A DNA stretch of 32,765 bases from assembly GCA_949288145.1 (NCBI GenBank), contig CASEJD010000119.1, positions 1-32,765 of the forward strand. Direction: 5' to 3'. Positions 19,606 through 26,680 of the stretch are shown in pieces. The position numbers were made by a program, and so were the translations under genes. Source of the DNA: an uncultured Coriobacteriia bacterium. GTDB taxonomy: Bacteria; Actinomycetota; Coriobacteriia; Coriobacteriales; Eggerthellaceae. The notes under the pieces are model-generated. The model had not been told where the DNA came from, made no database searches, and worked only from the letters and a program-made list of their open reading frames with translations. Positions within the stretch are counted from its first letter, which is position 1; each line of letters opens with the position of its first letter.

Positions 19606-20619
19606 ATGACGTCTCGTATCGCGAACTGTGCGCGAGCGCTGGTCAAAAGCACGCCCATCCCCGCCGCTGGCGTTGCCCTTGGAGTCGCGTCCCTTGGAAA
19701 CCTTCATGCGAACGCCTTCCCGCTCGCCCAGACAGCGTGCGCTGCGACTGCCGCCTTGCTCGTTGCGCTCGTCCTCGCGAAGGTCGCGCTCCACCGCCGC
19801 TCCTTCCAGGACGATATGGACAACCCCGTCATCGCCGGGACGTTCGCTACCCTGTTCATGTGCATCATGCAGCTGGCATCGTTCGCGGCTCCAACATTGG
19901 GGGCGATAGCGTTCGTTCCCTGGGCGGCCGCTATCGCCAGCCATGCGGCGCTCATTGTCTGGTTCACCGCGCGTTTCGTTCGCAAGTTTCAGCTTCGCAA
20001 CGTGTTCACTTCGTGGTTTGTCGCCTACGTGGGCATTATCGTAGGCGCCCTCACGTCTCCCGCGTTCGGGATGGAGGGTCTCGGGCGCATCCTGTTCTTC
20101 TTCGGCTTCGCCTGCTACGTCGCGCTGTTCGGCGTCGTAACGATCCGTCACGTTCGCCATAAGCTGCCTGAGGCGGCGGCGCCCACGTTCTGCATCTACA
20201 CAGCACCCATGAGCCTTTCGCTCGCAGGCTACCTTGCCGTCGCCGAGCAACCGGACACCGCATTCGTGGCGACGCTCGCCGTGCTCGCGCAAGCGCTGTT
20301 CGCCGTGGTGCTCACGCGGCTCCCCCGCCTCATCCGCGCACCGTTCTACCAAAGTCATGCGGCGATGACCTTCCCGTTCGTCATCACGGCGGCGGCGCTC
20401 GCGAAGGCGCTTGCGTGCTTGGACGCTGCCGGATGGCAGCTGCCCGCGTGGCTGGGAACGCTGTCCGCAGTAGAGGCGGCCTTCGCCACCGTCATCGTGT
20501 TCCTCGTCTTCGCGCGGTACGCGTGCCACATCGCGCGCGAAGCCCGCTCCGTGGTCGTCGCGGAGCACGACGCCTCAATCGCTCGGCCATCAATCGCCGC
20601 CCCCGAAATCGCACGCTAG
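19606..20619 (+). CDS. TDT (TehA/SLAC1-like) family transporter
   Basis: This is a 337-residue integral membrane protein with about ten hydrophobic helices. The N-terminal STPIPAAGVALGVASLGN is the TDT/TehA first-helix signature. FPFVITAAALAKAL lies in the second half, as in this family. Members carry C4-dicarboxylates, sulfite, tellurite-resistance-related or other anions as channels or exporters. The substrate here is unknown. GGAGGT precedes the ATG. It is paired divergently with a LysR regulator, suggesting inducible expression. Confidence 0.85.
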   Translation: MTSRIANCARALVKSTPIPAAGVALGVASLGNLHANAFPLAQTACAATAALLVALVLAKVALHRRSFQDDMDNPVIAGTFATLFMCIMQLASFAAPTLGAIAFVPWAAAIASHAALIVWFTARFVRKFQLRNVFTSWFVAYVGIIVGALTSPAFGMEGLGRILFFFGFACYVALFGVVTIRHVRHKLPEAAAPTFCIYTAPMSLSLAGYLAVAEQPDTAFVATLAVLAQALFAVVLTRLPRLIRAPFYQSHAAMTFPFVITAAALAKALACLDAAGWQLPAWLGTLSAVEAAFATVIVFLVFARYACHIAREARSVVVAEHDASIARPSIAAPEIAR

Positions 20620-21719: not shown

Positions 21720-21752
21720 GCAATCAATCGCGCACGCCGCACCCTCACCGAA

Positions 21753-21787
21753 AAAAAAACCGCCGGCCCGAGGCCGGCGGTTTTTTC
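21753..21787. terminator. Bidirectional intrinsic terminator between panE and the Cache-MscS gene
   Basis: A 10-bp GC-rich stem (21759-21768 with 21772-21781) closes a three-base loop and is flanked by runs of A on the left and T on the right, so a U tract follows on both strands. It serves panE (plus) and the channel gene (minus), whose stop is 2 nt away. Confidence 0.93.
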
Positions 21788-21788
21788 G

Positions 21789-24700
21789 CTATCGGCGGCT
21801 GACGTCCGCCAGGTCGAAGTCGTTGTCGTCGTCGAGGATGGCCTGCGACGCTTCCTTCTGCTCTTCGTTGAAGCGGTCGGCTGCGCGCTGTTCCATGACC
21901 GTCGCCTTTTGGAACACCCTCGGCTCGTGCACGACCACCTGCGGGTACGGAATGTTGATGCCGTTGCGGTCGAAGATGAGCTTCATCTCGCGACGCAGGT
22001 CGCGCTCAAGCGGGCCACGGTCACTCTCGGCGCATTGCGCCACGATGCGGATGACCACGCTATTGTCAGCCAGCGAGACGACGCCACGGTAGAACGGGCC
22101 TTCCTCGATCGCGGTGAGGCGCTCGCGAATGTGCGGGAACTCTTTCTCGAGCAGGTTCTCGACGCGCTCGAGGGATTCGCCGTACTCGATCTGCATGTCG
22201 CAGGAAGCGAACGAGGACTCCTTGGTCATGTTGACGACGTTGCTCACCTCGCTGTTGCGGATGATGATGATGTTTCCGTTGCCGTCGTTAATCTTCGTCG
22301 TGCGAATGCCGATTTCCATGACGGTGCCGCTGCGCGTGCCAACGGCGATGATGTCGCCGACGCGGAACTCGCCCTCGAAGATGATGAACAAGCCGGACAG
22401 GATGTCCGCTACAAGCTCCTTCGCGCCGAAAGAGATGGCGATGGACAGGATGCCGGCAGAGGCGAGCAGCGTCGTCGTGTCGATGCCGATGACCATCAAG
22501 CAGTAGTACACCATACCGATGATGGAAGCATACTTGATGAAGCTGCTCACAAGGCGGCACATCGTCTCGCCGCGCGGGCCGAACACCGTCGCCAGCAGCC
22601 TGAGCAGCTGCTGCACGAGCATCGTGATCGTCAGGACGCAGCATGCAATCATGATGCACGCCGTGATGGCGAACACGTTCAGACCGCGCTCCCATCCGCC
22701 AGCGAGGATGTAGGAGAACACCGATTCGGACGTGAAGACCCGATCTTGGAACAGCATCGCCGCGCACACGACGATGGCGAAAATGCTCAGCAGCACCTTG
22801 ATGACGGTGAGGACGCGCTGCTCGGCGGATTTCTCGTCCCAGTGCATAGAGCGGTACAGCCAGCGGCTTGCGGCGGACTCAGTCTTCTCGGTTCGGCCGT
22901 CCGGCATCTCCACGTCGATCATGCGCGGATCGTCGTCGCTCTCGCCCTCGGCGTCCTTTCGGGCGACGCCGGCGATGGTGCGGCGGCGCTCGAACGTCAC
23001 GAGCAGGAAGATGACAATTTGGCACAGCAAGCCGGAGAACGCCGTCGTCAGCGTCAACGGCACGCGCTCGGTCATGAGTTCGGACTCAGGTTGGGCGACG
23101 TAGATGTAGTAATCGTCCGTCTCGAAGGAGCTCGCGTAGTACCGTTGACCGTCGATGGTCACGAAGTCGCTGAAGCCGTCCTTGAGCTGCGCCTCGGTCA
23201 TACCGCGCGCCGTGGCGTCCTTGCCCGCGAGGTCGCTGTTCGGATAGTAGGCGAACGTGTTGTCCGACTTGTTCACGGCGAAGGCGAATCCGTTCTGCCC
23301 CACCTGGATGCCGTCGAGAACGTTCTCGACGTTGACGGACGCAAGGAGGTTCTCGAGGCGCTCCGAGCGGACGCTGATCTGGACGAAGCCTTCTGCATCG
23401 CCGTCCTGGTTGTGCAGGACGACGCCAATGTACTGGCGCAGCTGGCCGGACACCTCGTCGGGCATGGGGTCCTGGATGTAGTACTCGACGCCCTGCAACA
23501 GCTGGCGGAACGGATAGCTTTGATCAGAGGGATCATCGGAGAGCGTGAAGTTCACGTACGGCGAGTTCGTCTCGGTCATCACGCCCGCGCCGTCGAATAT
23601 GAACAGGTACTGCACGTGCAGCGCGTCGGAAAGCTCTTGTAGCTTCGCCTCGTCGGCGCGCAGTTCCGGATTCGCGTCAAGCGCGTAGCCGGCGACCTGA
23701 GCCTTGCCAAGGTAGCGTTCGTTGTACTGCGCCGTGAGGTCCGATGCCTGCTCGCGCGCGCTCGTAATGGCGCGCTCGATGTCGGCAGCTCGGTCGTTGC
23801 TGCTCACAGACTCGGCGGACAGCGAGAACAACGTCTGCATGTAGAACGTCACGCCGAGCACCGCGAGGAAGCCCACGAACGACAGGACGATTGCCTTGCG
23901 CCCGATGGCCTTGTTGTAGCGCAGCGGGCCGACGTTCGTGTAGTTCTCCGGATTGTAGCCGCGCTTCTCGTCTTCGCGGTTCACGAAAATACCGTAGAGC
24001 GCCACGATCATGGCGACGGAGAAGAAGATGAACAGGATGACGCCGAGCGTCAGGTTGCGCGAGCCGACGAACTCGCTGAACGGGACGACGCCGAGGTAGT
24101 ACGTGCCGTCGACTTCGGCAACGCCGACGAACACGCGCTCGCCGTTGAAGTGCATCCATTTGTAGTTGCCGTCTTCGAGGTCGCCGACCTGAATGCCCGC
24201 GTCGAGCGCGTCAATGCCGACGCACGCCTCGTCCGGGTGGTAGGAAACCGTGTAGTCGCGTCCGGAGATGGCCATGACATAGCCGGTCTGCCCCACGCTC
24301 AGGTGGCGCAGCACGCTCTCGTGGGAGCCCGTGGTGTCGAGCAGCTCCTTGAGCTCGGCAGGGTCCTGTTCAATGACGACCATGGTGTTGTCGTCGATGC
24401 GCGCAGCGTAGTAGCGCATCGTCTGGCCGGACTCGGCGAAATCGACCTCCATGCCCTCGCTCGGCTCGCCCGTTTCGAACACGGAGCGAAGCTGGTTGTA
24501 GCGGGAGTAGGAGAACTCGGCCGGCGTGTCCTGCGCCTTGGCGACGACGTTGCCAGCGCGGTCCACGACAAGGACGTTGTCGACGCTCAGCAGGTCCTTG
24601 TACTCCTGCATCTTCGCGTCCGTAGCCTCGTAGCCCGTGTTGTTGTTCGCCAAGAACGCCACGCTCTCCGCCTTCGACGCGTAAATGTCGTCGTAGGTCT

Positions 24701-24896
24701 GCGTGTTCTGAGCGTTCTCTTCGTCGGCTGCCTGCAGCAGGGCGGGCAGCTCGCTCATCTCGGATTTGATGTCGACCGTGTAGTTCTCGACAGAAATGTC
24801 GTCCTGCAGCGCAGCGACGATGAAGCCCATCGCCACGACGCTTGCGACGACGAACAGCGCGAGCAGGGTCGCTTTTATCTTGAGTTTTCGAGACAT
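21789..24896 (-). CDS. MscS-type channel with two extracytoplasmic Cache-like sensor domains
   Basis: The protein has 1035 residues. TM1 (8-29) is followed by a large outside domain (30-278) with VGQTGYVMAIS and a YHP motif, features of Cache domains. TM2 (281-304), a short basic loop and TM3 (333-356) lead to a second outside domain (357-612) with VGQNGFAFAVN and YYPNSDL, a likely duplication of the first. TM4 (614-635) precedes a charged cytoplasmic linker. Three further helices (695-804) and the MscS pore helix follow, with ASAGILSIAISFGAKE. The beta domain (FRVGDIIAVG, IIIIRNSEVSN) and alpha/beta domain complete a channel to about residue 1000. MscS proteins open under membrane tension; here ligand sensing may modulate gating, which is inference. 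GGGAGGG supports the ATG. A solute-binding lipoprotein gene lies 14 nt upstream. Confidence 0.88.
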   Translation of the reverse strand: MSRKLKIKATLLALFVVASVVAMGFIVAALQDDISVENYTVDIKSEMSELPALLQAADEENAQNTQTYDDIYASKAESVAFLANNNTGYEATDAKMQEYKDLLSVDNVLVVDRAGNVVAKAQDTPAEFSYSRYNQLRSVFETGEPSEGMEVDFAESGQTMRYYAARIDDNTMVVIEQDPAELKELLDTTGSHESVLRHLSVGQTGYVMAISGRDYTVSYHPDEACVGIDALDAGIQVGDLEDGNYKWMHFNGERVFVGVAEVDGTYYLGVVPFSEFVGSRNLTLGVILFIFFSVAMIVALYGIFVNREDEKRGYNPENYTNVGPLRYNKAIGRKAIVLSFVGFLAVLGVTFYMQTLFSLSAESVSSNDRAADIERAITSAREQASDLTAQYNERYLGKAQVAGYALDANPELRADEAKLQELSDALHVQYLFIFDGAGVMTETNSPYVNFTLSDDPSDQSYPFRQLLQGVEYYIQDPMPDEVSGQLRQYIGVVLHNQDGDAEGFVQISVRSERLENLLASVNVENVLDGIQVGQNGFAFAVNKSDNTFAYYPNSDLAGKDATARGMTEAQLKDGFSDFVTIDGQRYYASSFETDDYYIYVAQPESELMTERVPLTLTTAFSGLLCQIVIFLLVTFERRRTIAGVARKDAEGESDDDPRMIDVEMPDGRTEKTESAASRWLYRSMHWDEKSAEQRVLTVIKVLLSIFAIVVCAAMLFQDRVFTSESVFSYILAGGWERGLNVFAITACIMIACCVLTITMLVQQLLRLLATVFGPRGETMCRLVSSFIKYASIIGMVYYCLMVIGIDTTTLLASAGILSIAISFGAKELVADILSGLFIIFEGEFRVGDIIAVGTRSGTVMEIGIRTTKINDGNGNIIIIRNSEVSNVVNMTKESSFASCDMQIEYGESLERVENLLEKEFPHIRERLTAIEEGPFYRGVVSLADNSVVIRIVAQCAESDRGPLERDLRREMKLIFDRNGINIPYPQVVVHEPRVFQKATVMEQRAADRFNEEQKEASQAILDDDNDFDLADVSRR

Positions 24897-24910
24897 GCAG
24901 TCAACCCTCC

Positions 24911-25729
24911 CTAGTTCCACTTGTCCGTGAGCGCGGCGATGGTGCCGTCGTCGATCATGCCTTGGACGGCCTCGGCAACGCGGCCGGAGAGCTCAGAGCC
25001 CTTCTGCGTGGCGATGCCGTACTGCTGCTCGGCGATGTTGTAGTCCAACAGCGTGCGCTCGTCGTTCATGAAGCCCTGGGCGATAGCGCCGTCCATGACG
25101 GCGGCGTCGACGGTTCCCTCTTCCAGCTCCTGCGAAAGCTCAGCGTAGGATGCGATCTTCTTGACGTAGACGCCTTCGTACTGGGTGCCCGCGTCGTCGT
25201 TGGAGATGATGTTGTCGCCGATGATGCCGTCGGCGTTGAGCTTGATGGCAAGAAGCGGACCGGCGTTCGACCCGGACATGATGCCGATCGTCTTGCCGCC
25301 TAACTGCGCCGGATCGGCGATCATCGAGCTGTTCTCCACCATGACGCGCGTGCCGTCCGTGTAGTACGCCGGCGAGAAGTCGAAGTTCTCGAGGCGAGAA
25401 TCGGCAATGGAATAGCACGCCACCAGACAATCGACCTCGCCGTTTAGGAGCCGCTCTTTGCGGTCGTCAGGCGTGACGGTGCTGAACTCGACGTCGGCGT
25501 AGCCCAAACGATTCGCCAGCTCTTCGGCGATGTCGACTTCCAGGCCGTAGTACTTGCCCGTTCTCTCGTTCAGATAACTGAAGTTCATGATGTCGTCGCG
25601 CACGCCGACGCGCAGCGTGCCCTGTCCTGAATCGGACAGCTGTGTCGAGCCGCACCCGACGAGGCACAGCACCATGGCGAGCACGAGCGCCGCCACGACG
25701 ACGAGCGCCGGCTTCCTGCCTTTCCCCAC
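24911..25729 (-). CDS. Amino-acid-type solute-binding lipoprotein
   Basis: The 272-residue protein starts at a GTG with GAGGAGGG five bases before it. An ATG 18 codons upstream lacks a site and would bury the signal peptide. The lipoprotein signal has a basic start (MGKGRKPA), a hydrophobic core and lipobox LVGC with Cys26. The mature part is a family 3 solute-binding fold: LRVGVRDD, YYGLEVDIAEELANRLGY, ACYSIADSRLENFDFSPAYY (with the Arg that usually holds the amino-acid carboxylate) and VDAAVMDGAIA. No permease or ATPase is present. It is in an operon with the Cache-MscS gene, so it may present a ligand to that protein. The ligand is unknown. Confidence 0.9.
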   Translation of the reverse strand: MGKGRKPALVVVAALVLAMVLCLVGCGSTQLSDSGQGTLRVGVRDDIMNFSYLNERTGKYYGLEVDIAEELANRLGYADVEFSTVTPDDRKERLLNGEVDCLVACYSIADSRLENFDFSPAYYTDGTRVMVENSSMIADPAQLGGKTIGIMSGSNAGPLLAIKLNADGIIGDNIISNDDAGTQYEGVYVKKIASYAELSQELEEGTVDAAVMDGAIAQGFMNDERTLLDYNIAEQQYGIATQKGSELSGRVAEAVQGMIDDGTIAALTDKWN

Positions 25730-26011: not shown

Positions 26012-26299
26012 ATGGGCAAAGACGCAGTCCTGCACGTGCGCATCGATTCCGCGGAAAAGGAGTCGGCCGAAGCCATCTACGACAACATTGGCACAAGCCT
26101 GTCCGAGGCCACGCGCATTTTTATCAAGCAGTCCATCAAGGCGAACGGCTTCCCGTTCCGCCCCGTGAGCGACCAACGTAAAGGCGGCATGAGCGCCCAA
26201 GGCGCTCTGCGCATGTACGCGCACCGAGAAATGCGCGAGTCCGAGCGTGAGGCGTGGATTCGTTCTTTGTCCGACAAATACGAGACGTTCAACCGCTAA
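26012..26299 (+). CDS. RelB/DinJ-type antitoxin
   Basis: The 95-residue protein has an N-terminal ribbon-helix-helix: [20 protein letters not shown], then [20 protein letters not shown], ending in the FPFRP typical of RelB/DinJ. The C-terminal half is basic and acidic mixed and presumably wraps the toxin. The ATG has an AGGAGG site. It is followed after 12 nt by a PIN-domain gene. Autoregulation by the pair is expected for this family, but I could not define an operator. Confidence 0.85.
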
Positions 26300-26311
26300 C
26301 TAGGAGGCGGC

Positions 26312-26680
26312 ATGCGCATCCTCATCGACGAGACCGTCATCCTGCGCTACCTGCTGGAAGACGACAAGAAGGGCTTCAAGGAGGCTTCCGCCGCCATCGG
26401 CACCGGCCAGGCGTACACCTACCCCGAGATCATGGCGCGCGTGGCCGTGACACTGCGCGACGTCTACCGCGTGCCGCGCTCACAGATCGGGTACGTGATG
26501 CTCTCGCTCCTTGACGACATCCACGTCCAAGAAGAGGACGTGGTGCGCTACGCATGCCGGCTCTTTGGCTCGAGCATGCTTGACTACGTGGACTGCCTCC
26601 TCGTGGCGCGCAACGCGCTGCACGGCGAGTCCGTCATGACCTTCGACAAGCCGCTCTTGAAGCGAACGTTGTCGCTGTAG
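26312..26680 (+). CDS. PIN domain ribonuclease toxin
   Basis: The 122-residue PIN domain has its acidic residues in place: Asp6 (ILIDETVILRYLLEDD), Glu39 (YPEIMARV), Asp91 or Asp94 (MLDYVDCLLVA) and Asp112 (MTFDKPL). The usual Asn after the first Asp (DTN) is replaced by DET. PIN toxins are Mg-dependent RNases that cut tRNA, rRNA or mRNA. The partner here is RelB/DinJ-like rather than VapB. AGGAGG lies before the ATG. It forms a two-gene operon with the antitoxin. Confidence 0.88.
   Translation: MRILIDETVILRYLLEDDKKGFKEASAAIGTGQAYTYPEIMARVAVTLRDVYRVPRSQIGYVMLSLLDDIHVQEEDVVRYACRLFGSSMLDYVDCLLVARNALHGESVMTFDKPLLKRTLSL

Follow-up and report, generated by a model that had tools for sequence, protein, structure and literature searches.

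Two adjoining genes on the minus strand of a 32,765-nucleotide contig (CASEJD010000119.1, positions 1 to 32,765, assembly GCA_949288145.1; here referred to as the window, meaning the whole stretch analyzed) from an uncultured Coriobacteriia bacterium of the Eggerthellaceae encode a family-3 solute-binding protein (SBP) and a large MscS-type channel protein. The SBP gene (24911 to 25729) starts with GTG and encodes a 272-residue lipoprotein, a predicted aspartate or glutamate binder, with a signal peptide and a lipobox, LVGC, at residues 23 to 26 of the translation (25652 to 25663). It is followed by a gap of 14 nucleotides with a GGAGGG ribosome-binding site (24897 to 24910) and then by the channel gene (21789 to 24896), whose 1,035-residue product was classified from Pfam and PDB profile matches and a structural model. 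This protein has two extracytoplasmic dCache_1 domains, at residues 30 to 282 (24051 to 24809) and 360 to 610 (23067 to 23819), and a C-terminal MscS channel module at residues 739 to 990 (21927 to 22682).

A bidirectional intrinsic terminator (21751 to 21786, both strands) closes the pair. Its hairpin has a folding energy of −33.1 kcal/mol on the minus strand (z score −5.2) and T-tracts on both strands, and it is common to the channel gene and a convergent ketopantoate-reductase (ApbA/PanE) gene, with z scores of about −5 on either strand. A scan for consensus promoters and terminators found no promoter and also missed this terminator. No transporter gene is adjacent to the pair in the window, and neither an ATP-binding cassette (ABC) permease nor an ABC ATPase gene adjoins it there. 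A sequence-only reading of the window had described a lipoprotein gene, a short gap, a 1,035-residue channel protein, and a closing terminator with no ABC genes alongside, and each of these elements is present, with both genes on the minus strand at the coordinates it gave.

Conservation of the gene pair

We surveyed 138 genomes of the family and scanned 84,980 species more widely, obtaining 288 relatives, 80 of which were kept for locus analysis. The family genomes contain 29 full-length channel homologs (at least 31% identity) and 28 SBP orthologs (37 to 81% identity). Every one of these SBP orthologs accompanies a channel, 27 of them directly upstream and one split over contig ends; none was found without a channel among the 138 genomes, and the lone family channel without an SBP (1 of 29) is a relative of 34% identity. 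Across the wider set, the SBP gene lies 12 to 66 nucleotides upstream of the channel gene at 78 of 80 loci, the two exceptions being a locus that begins at a contig end and one with a frameshifted channel. The loci come from Coriobacteriia and Bacillota (Eggerthellaceae, Coriobacteriaceae, Atopobiaceae, Lachnospiraceae, Oscillospiraceae, and others), and carriers include the cultured gut bacteria Gordonibacter pamelaeae, Eggerthella sinensis, Slackia equolifaciens, and Collinsella tanakaei. The pair is spread over dozens of genera, with surrounding genes that differ from genus to genus, and conservation on this scale places the arrangement far beyond chance. The two-gene arrangement is thus confirmed and is stronger than first described: the gene order, sought across Coriobacteriia, is conserved there and reaches Lachnospiraceae and Oscillospiraceae too.

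The pair is not accompanied by the components of an importer. An amino-acid ABC permease was found within 3 to 4 kb at none of the 80 pair loci, compared with all four control SBP loci. The next SBP homologs fall to ∼39% identity, and the control SBP genes examined belong to amino-acid ABC operons. Family-3 SBPs number three in the window's own genome, and its single amino-acid ABC permease above the family cutoff shares an operon with an SBP of its own. Accordingly, the possibility raised earlier that homologs of this SBP mostly neighbor ABC permeases was not borne out, and the combination of permease and ATPase with an SBP that defines an amino-acid ABC importer is lacking. The pair instead has the form of an SBP-dependent sensor, that is, an SBP encoded with a nontransporter membrane sensor. 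No fusion of SBP and channel in one protein was seen among the loci examined, and a search for relatives on plasmids gave no match.

A gene for a LysR regulator stands beside the pair in at most 20 actinobacterial loci (L068, L074, L080, L083 to L091, and L102 to L110), divergent ∼450 nucleotides upstream in some and convergent ∼130 to 270 nucleotides downstream in Collinsella and Enorma. We considered this regulator as a third component and rejected it; because it occurs in none of the Bacillota loci, it is not a constant part of the pair.

Ligand signature of the lipoprotein

The SBP matches the Pfam family SBP_bac_3 (E value 3e-26), and its lipid anchor, Cys26, is invariant across 24 aligned orthologs. 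The structures closest to its model (predicted local distance difference test [pLDDT] score, 88) are Campylobacter PEB1A with aspartate (Z score 28.9) and an Enterococcus glutamate-binding SBP (Z score 27.9); binders of glutamine, arginine, and lysine rank lower (Z scores of 26 and below). Cores of GluR0 are also among the fold matches (Z scores 24.5 to 24.6).

In mycobacterial GlnH, Arg147, Thr162, and Trp232 contact the side chain of the bound aspartate and Ser164, Arg169, and Asp250 its backbone, and the side-chain set marks SBPs specific for aspartate or glutamate (PMC6069109). The equivalents in the window SBP are R90, C105, and Y195 (ligand side chain) and S107, R112, and D213 (ligand backbone), with spacing identical to that of GlnH: 15, 2, and 5 residues along R90-C105-S107-R112 and 18 residues from Y195 to D213. 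An alignment with PEB1a pairs the same contact residues with the window SBP, the aromatic residue of PEB1a being tyrosine. R90, R112, Y195, and D213 are invariant in all 79 SBP sequences, and R44 is arginine wherever it is aligned. Position 105, which corresponds to Thr162 of GlnH, is Cys, Thr, or Ala in 60, 12, and 7 sequences, respectively, so the threonine contact is kept only in part. The window SBP thus has the contact set (Arg, Thr, aromatic) of family-3 SBPs that bind aspartate or glutamate, with a variable threonine position. The SBPs of two loci, L173 and L174, which pair with very divergent channels, have exactly the residues of PEB1a (K, R, T, T, R, Y, D); R90 is missing from the other two family-3 SBPs encoded in the window's own genome. 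Given the invariant contacts, the spacing shared with GlnH, and the closest structures, our best guess from sequence comparison is that the ligand is an acidic amino acid, aspartate or glutamate, which narrows the “amino-acid-like” ligand suggested previously.

Cache ectodomains and MscS module of the channel protein

The C-terminal part of the channel protein matches MS_channel_2nd (PF00924; E value 4e-16) and MS_channel_1st (PF21088; E value 1e-6) in Pfam, and a PDB profile search aligned residues 777 to 996 with the MscS structure 3UDC (E value 5e-39). Its pore helix (TM3) and beta domain are homologous to those of the MscS superfamily, to which we assign it, and the top Foldseek matches agree. 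Hydropathy indicates membrane segments at residues ∼11 to 29, 286 to 304, 335 to 353, 615 to 633, 698 to 716, 743 to 761, and 787 to 817, the last probably being the start of a helix pair. These segments place the stretches from residues 30 to 282 and 360 to 610 outside the membrane, each between a pair of helices.

Both outside domains are Cache folds, as the sequence-only reading had supposed. In the window protein, dCache_1 is detected at residues 366 to 595 with an E value of 1e-8, a score under Pfam's curated cutoff; searched as whole proteins, 21 of 21 relatives match the family, and in searches of single domains it is found in the first outside domain of 14 of 19 relatives and in the second of all 19. 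The two domains are mutually homologous and represent a tandem duplication (hhalign probability 99.8%, E value 1e-30). An AlphaFold2 model of the protein has a pLDDT score of 73 overall, with the outside domains mostly at 80 to 93. Fold matches for the second domain include Mlp24, PctA, PscC, and CtaA, and those for the first include the ectodomain of PacA (Z score 12.9) and a sensor-kinase domain; the Cache matches have Z scores of ∼11 to 14, with high root mean square deviations when whole double domains are compared. Profile searches with each Cache domain against PDB sequences gave chance matches only, so that fold comparison was required. Thus, the protein has double Cache folds between two transmembrane helices and belongs with dCache_1, even with its own score under the Pfam cutoff.

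In amino-acid-binding dCache domains, the first Cache subdomain carries YxxxRxWY and the second an aspartate (PMC9901441). This YxxxRxWY motif was found in none of 90 relatives, and the proteins therefore fall outside dCache_1AA, the universal amino-acid sensor. Such an absence would be anticipated were the SBP the ligand receptor, and it agrees better with Cache domains reading the SBP than with direct binding of an amino acid by the Cache domains. The first Cache domain does have invariant residues of its own, R105, R110, R134, Y135, and Y136 (numbering of alignment A3). Conservation within the protein is highest in the pore helix and beta domain, with a mean p-distance of 0.37 for the pore versus 0.50 to 0.51 for the Cache domains, and hydrophobic residues I819 and F823 occupy positions matched to the MscS gate in a manual alignment. 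The window's own genome has an additional MscS-like open reading frame of 276 residues, with 30% identity across the pore part; hence, the role of general turgor valve need not fall to the Cache channel.

A candidate amino-acid-responsive channel and its alternatives

We put at roughly even the chance that the two genes form one signaling unit in which an aspartate- or glutamate-binding lipoprotein docks on the Cache ectodomain and biases the MscS-type pore. The lipoprotein, on the outer face of the membrane, would close around aspartate or glutamate and then dock onto the tandem Cache ectodomain of the channel, presumably a heptamer. The Cache domains would relay the change through long helices and transmembrane pairs to the pore, and its opening threshold would shift. 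External aspartate or glutamate would thereby gate or tune a nonselective efflux pore that may itself pass glutamate and other small osmolytes. Glutamate export through MscS-type channels is known from Corynebacterium glutamicum and Bacillus methanolicus (PMC6110860, PMC12541555), and deletion of the periplasmic loop of MscCG leads to spontaneous glutamate secretion (PMC7835871). Because channels of this type can pass glutamate, it is plausible that glutamate outside the cell controls the release of glutamate or osmolytes. GlnH-GlnX and LuxP-LuxQ provide precedent for the SBP half of such a mechanism and the extracytoplasmic loop of MscCG for the gating half. To this extent, the ligand-modulated channel of the sequence-only reading is partly supported. 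We entertain tentatively, as somewhat short of an even prospect, the broader proposal of an undescribed ligand-gated channel class, in which a lipoprotein loaded with aspartate or glutamate opens or closes an MscS-type pore via tandem Cache domains, as an independent bacterial counterpart of glutamate-gated channels common to gut Coriobacteriia and Clostridia.

The C-terminal MscS pore and beta domain of the channel protein are also found in MscS-superfamily members that have gained extra domains, namely MscK, MscM, YbiO, YnaI, and MscCG of Corynebacterium. To our knowledge, none of these channels has Cache domains or an SBP gene partner. Unlike them, the protein described here consists for half of its length of two dCache domains. 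The binding protein LuxP is read by the tandem PAS/Cache ectodomain of LuxQ, as is proposed here; however, LuxP belongs to the sugar-type SBPs and LuxQ to the histidine kinases, whereas the present pair combines a family-3 SBP with a channel. In ionotropic glutamate receptors and GluR0, a family-3-type SBP fold controls a membrane pore, but that domain is fused to a P-loop pore, whereas here it is a separate gene alongside an MscS pore; the likeness is one of working principle only, and the pair is not a member of that class. Importers of the PEB1a type have a similar SBP for aspartate or glutamate, but here no permease or ATPase is near the gene. Gating of MscCG is set by an extracytoplasmic loop, and glutamate leaves the cell through its pore (PMC7835871, PMC6110860). 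The GlnH-GlnX-PknG system of Mycobacterium and other Actinobacteria likewise has an aspartate- or glutamate-binding family-3 lipoprotein encoded with a nontransporter membrane sensor; GlnH, whose contact residues and spacing are those seen here, acts via the membrane protein GlnX, but GlnX, whose sensor domains are predicted to be four-helix bundles, acts on a kinase, whereas the partner here has Cache domains and a channel (PMC6069109). The alpha2delta subunits of animal calcium channels also attach two dCache_1 domains to an ion channel, but as a separate auxiliary subunit with the amino-acid motif and no SBP (PMC9901441). The main survey of Cache domains mentions ion channels only via alpha2delta-type domains (PMC4822843), and we found no description of a Cache-MscS protein or an SBP-MscS pair in the literature searched, most subscription papers lying outside its reach.

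Some observations weigh against a unit of lipoprotein and channel. No SBP of this kind adjoins the genes of divergent Cache-MscS proteins, most of them from Lachnospiraceae, and channels of this type can therefore function in its absence; the Cache channel extends beyond the pair, with the SBP partnering one large subfamily. In the channel model, confidence is low for the pore (pLDDT score, 35 to 70). Finally, the evolutionary distances of the SBP are correlated with those of the Cache domains (r = 0.81; partial correlation 0.48 to 0.49 given the pore), which fits coevolution but can also arise by common descent alone. The occurrence of the channel without the SBP, named earlier as evidence that would count against the proposal, therefore holds for divergent relatives (∼34% identity or less) and for one frameshifted close relative and not otherwise.

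On the channel tree, the SBP label needs four changes (FastTree, with long branches). The frameshifted channel (L137, also L183:4827-7773), from a Lachnospiraceae metagenome-assembled genome (MAG), lies directly behind metA; decay after loss of the partner is possible. A close channel relative of L173 and L174, L172, is without an SBP, a pattern that we propose to read as repeated gain or loss of the SBP. Another divergent Cache-MscS gene without its own SBP (L171:2608-8596) lies 150 nucleotides behind the gene for a hybrid histidine kinase whose sensor domains are of the family-3 SBP type. A copy from a Lachnospiraceae MAG (L116) nests within Coriobacteriia next to L103, through either horizontal transfer of the pair or assembly contamination. 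The first Cache domain may be the SBP docking site, as its absence from SBP-less relatives would suggest, but among these the domain is shortened in only one group and whole in the others.

Several other explanations bear on the same evidence. The pore might be a release valve through which acidic amino acids escape under turgor or metabolic overflow, with the lipoprotein catching them outside as a buffer or feedback sensor and the Cache domains sensing something else. Glutamate export by the MscS-type channels of C. glutamicum and B. methanolicus (PMC6110860, PMC12541555) and the ligand signature of the SBP suit this explanation, but a tethered SBP with no transporter and no permease near has no obvious means of returning its ligand, and two Cache domains are left unexplained; we regard such a valve as improbable. 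It is similarly unlikely that the Cache domains bind a small ligand of their own and gate the channel, with the SBP acting as an accessory, to concentrate or deliver a related solute without docking. Although dCache domains usually bind ligands directly, SBP-less relatives exist, and the first Cache domain has its invariant Arg and Tyr residues, the amino-acid motif is missing from all 90 proteins, and an SBP fixed 12 to 66 nucleotides away in two phyla suggests more than an accessory.

We see little chance that the genes are merely cotranscribed, the SBP serving an ABC importer encoded elsewhere and sharing a promoter with an osmotic channel that it does not contact. Family-3 SBPs mostly do serve ABC importers, and the nearest homologs examined are in importer operons; yet no amino-acid ABC permease is near any of the 80 loci, the one clear such permease of the window's own genome has an SBP in its operon, and SBP orthologs in the family genomes never occur without the channel. 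A membrane signaling scaffold whose MscS module no longer conducts seems very improbable: the protein is far more sensor than channel and no conductance is known for it, but the pore helix and beta domain are its best-conserved parts, and hydrophobic residues are kept at the gate positions.

The recognized roles of MscS channels are those of turgor valves and glutamate exporters, and SBPs are known to partner transporters or kinases. If the lipoprotein does act on the channel, a fixed pair of SBP and Cache channel would unite these roles, and a mechanosensitive-type pore could come under external amino-acid control. The pair would then offer, in cultured gut bacteria, a compact system for studying how outside ligands gate MscS and for examining glutamate sensing or release by gut bacteria, glutamate being active on the host too.

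Upstream of the SBP gene and divergent from it, genes for a RelB-like antitoxin and then a PIN-domain toxin (26012 to 26680, plus strand) are found, as they are in a close relative. A gene for an anion channel or exporter of the SLAC1/TehA type (19606 to 20619, plus strand) is located two genes from the pair.

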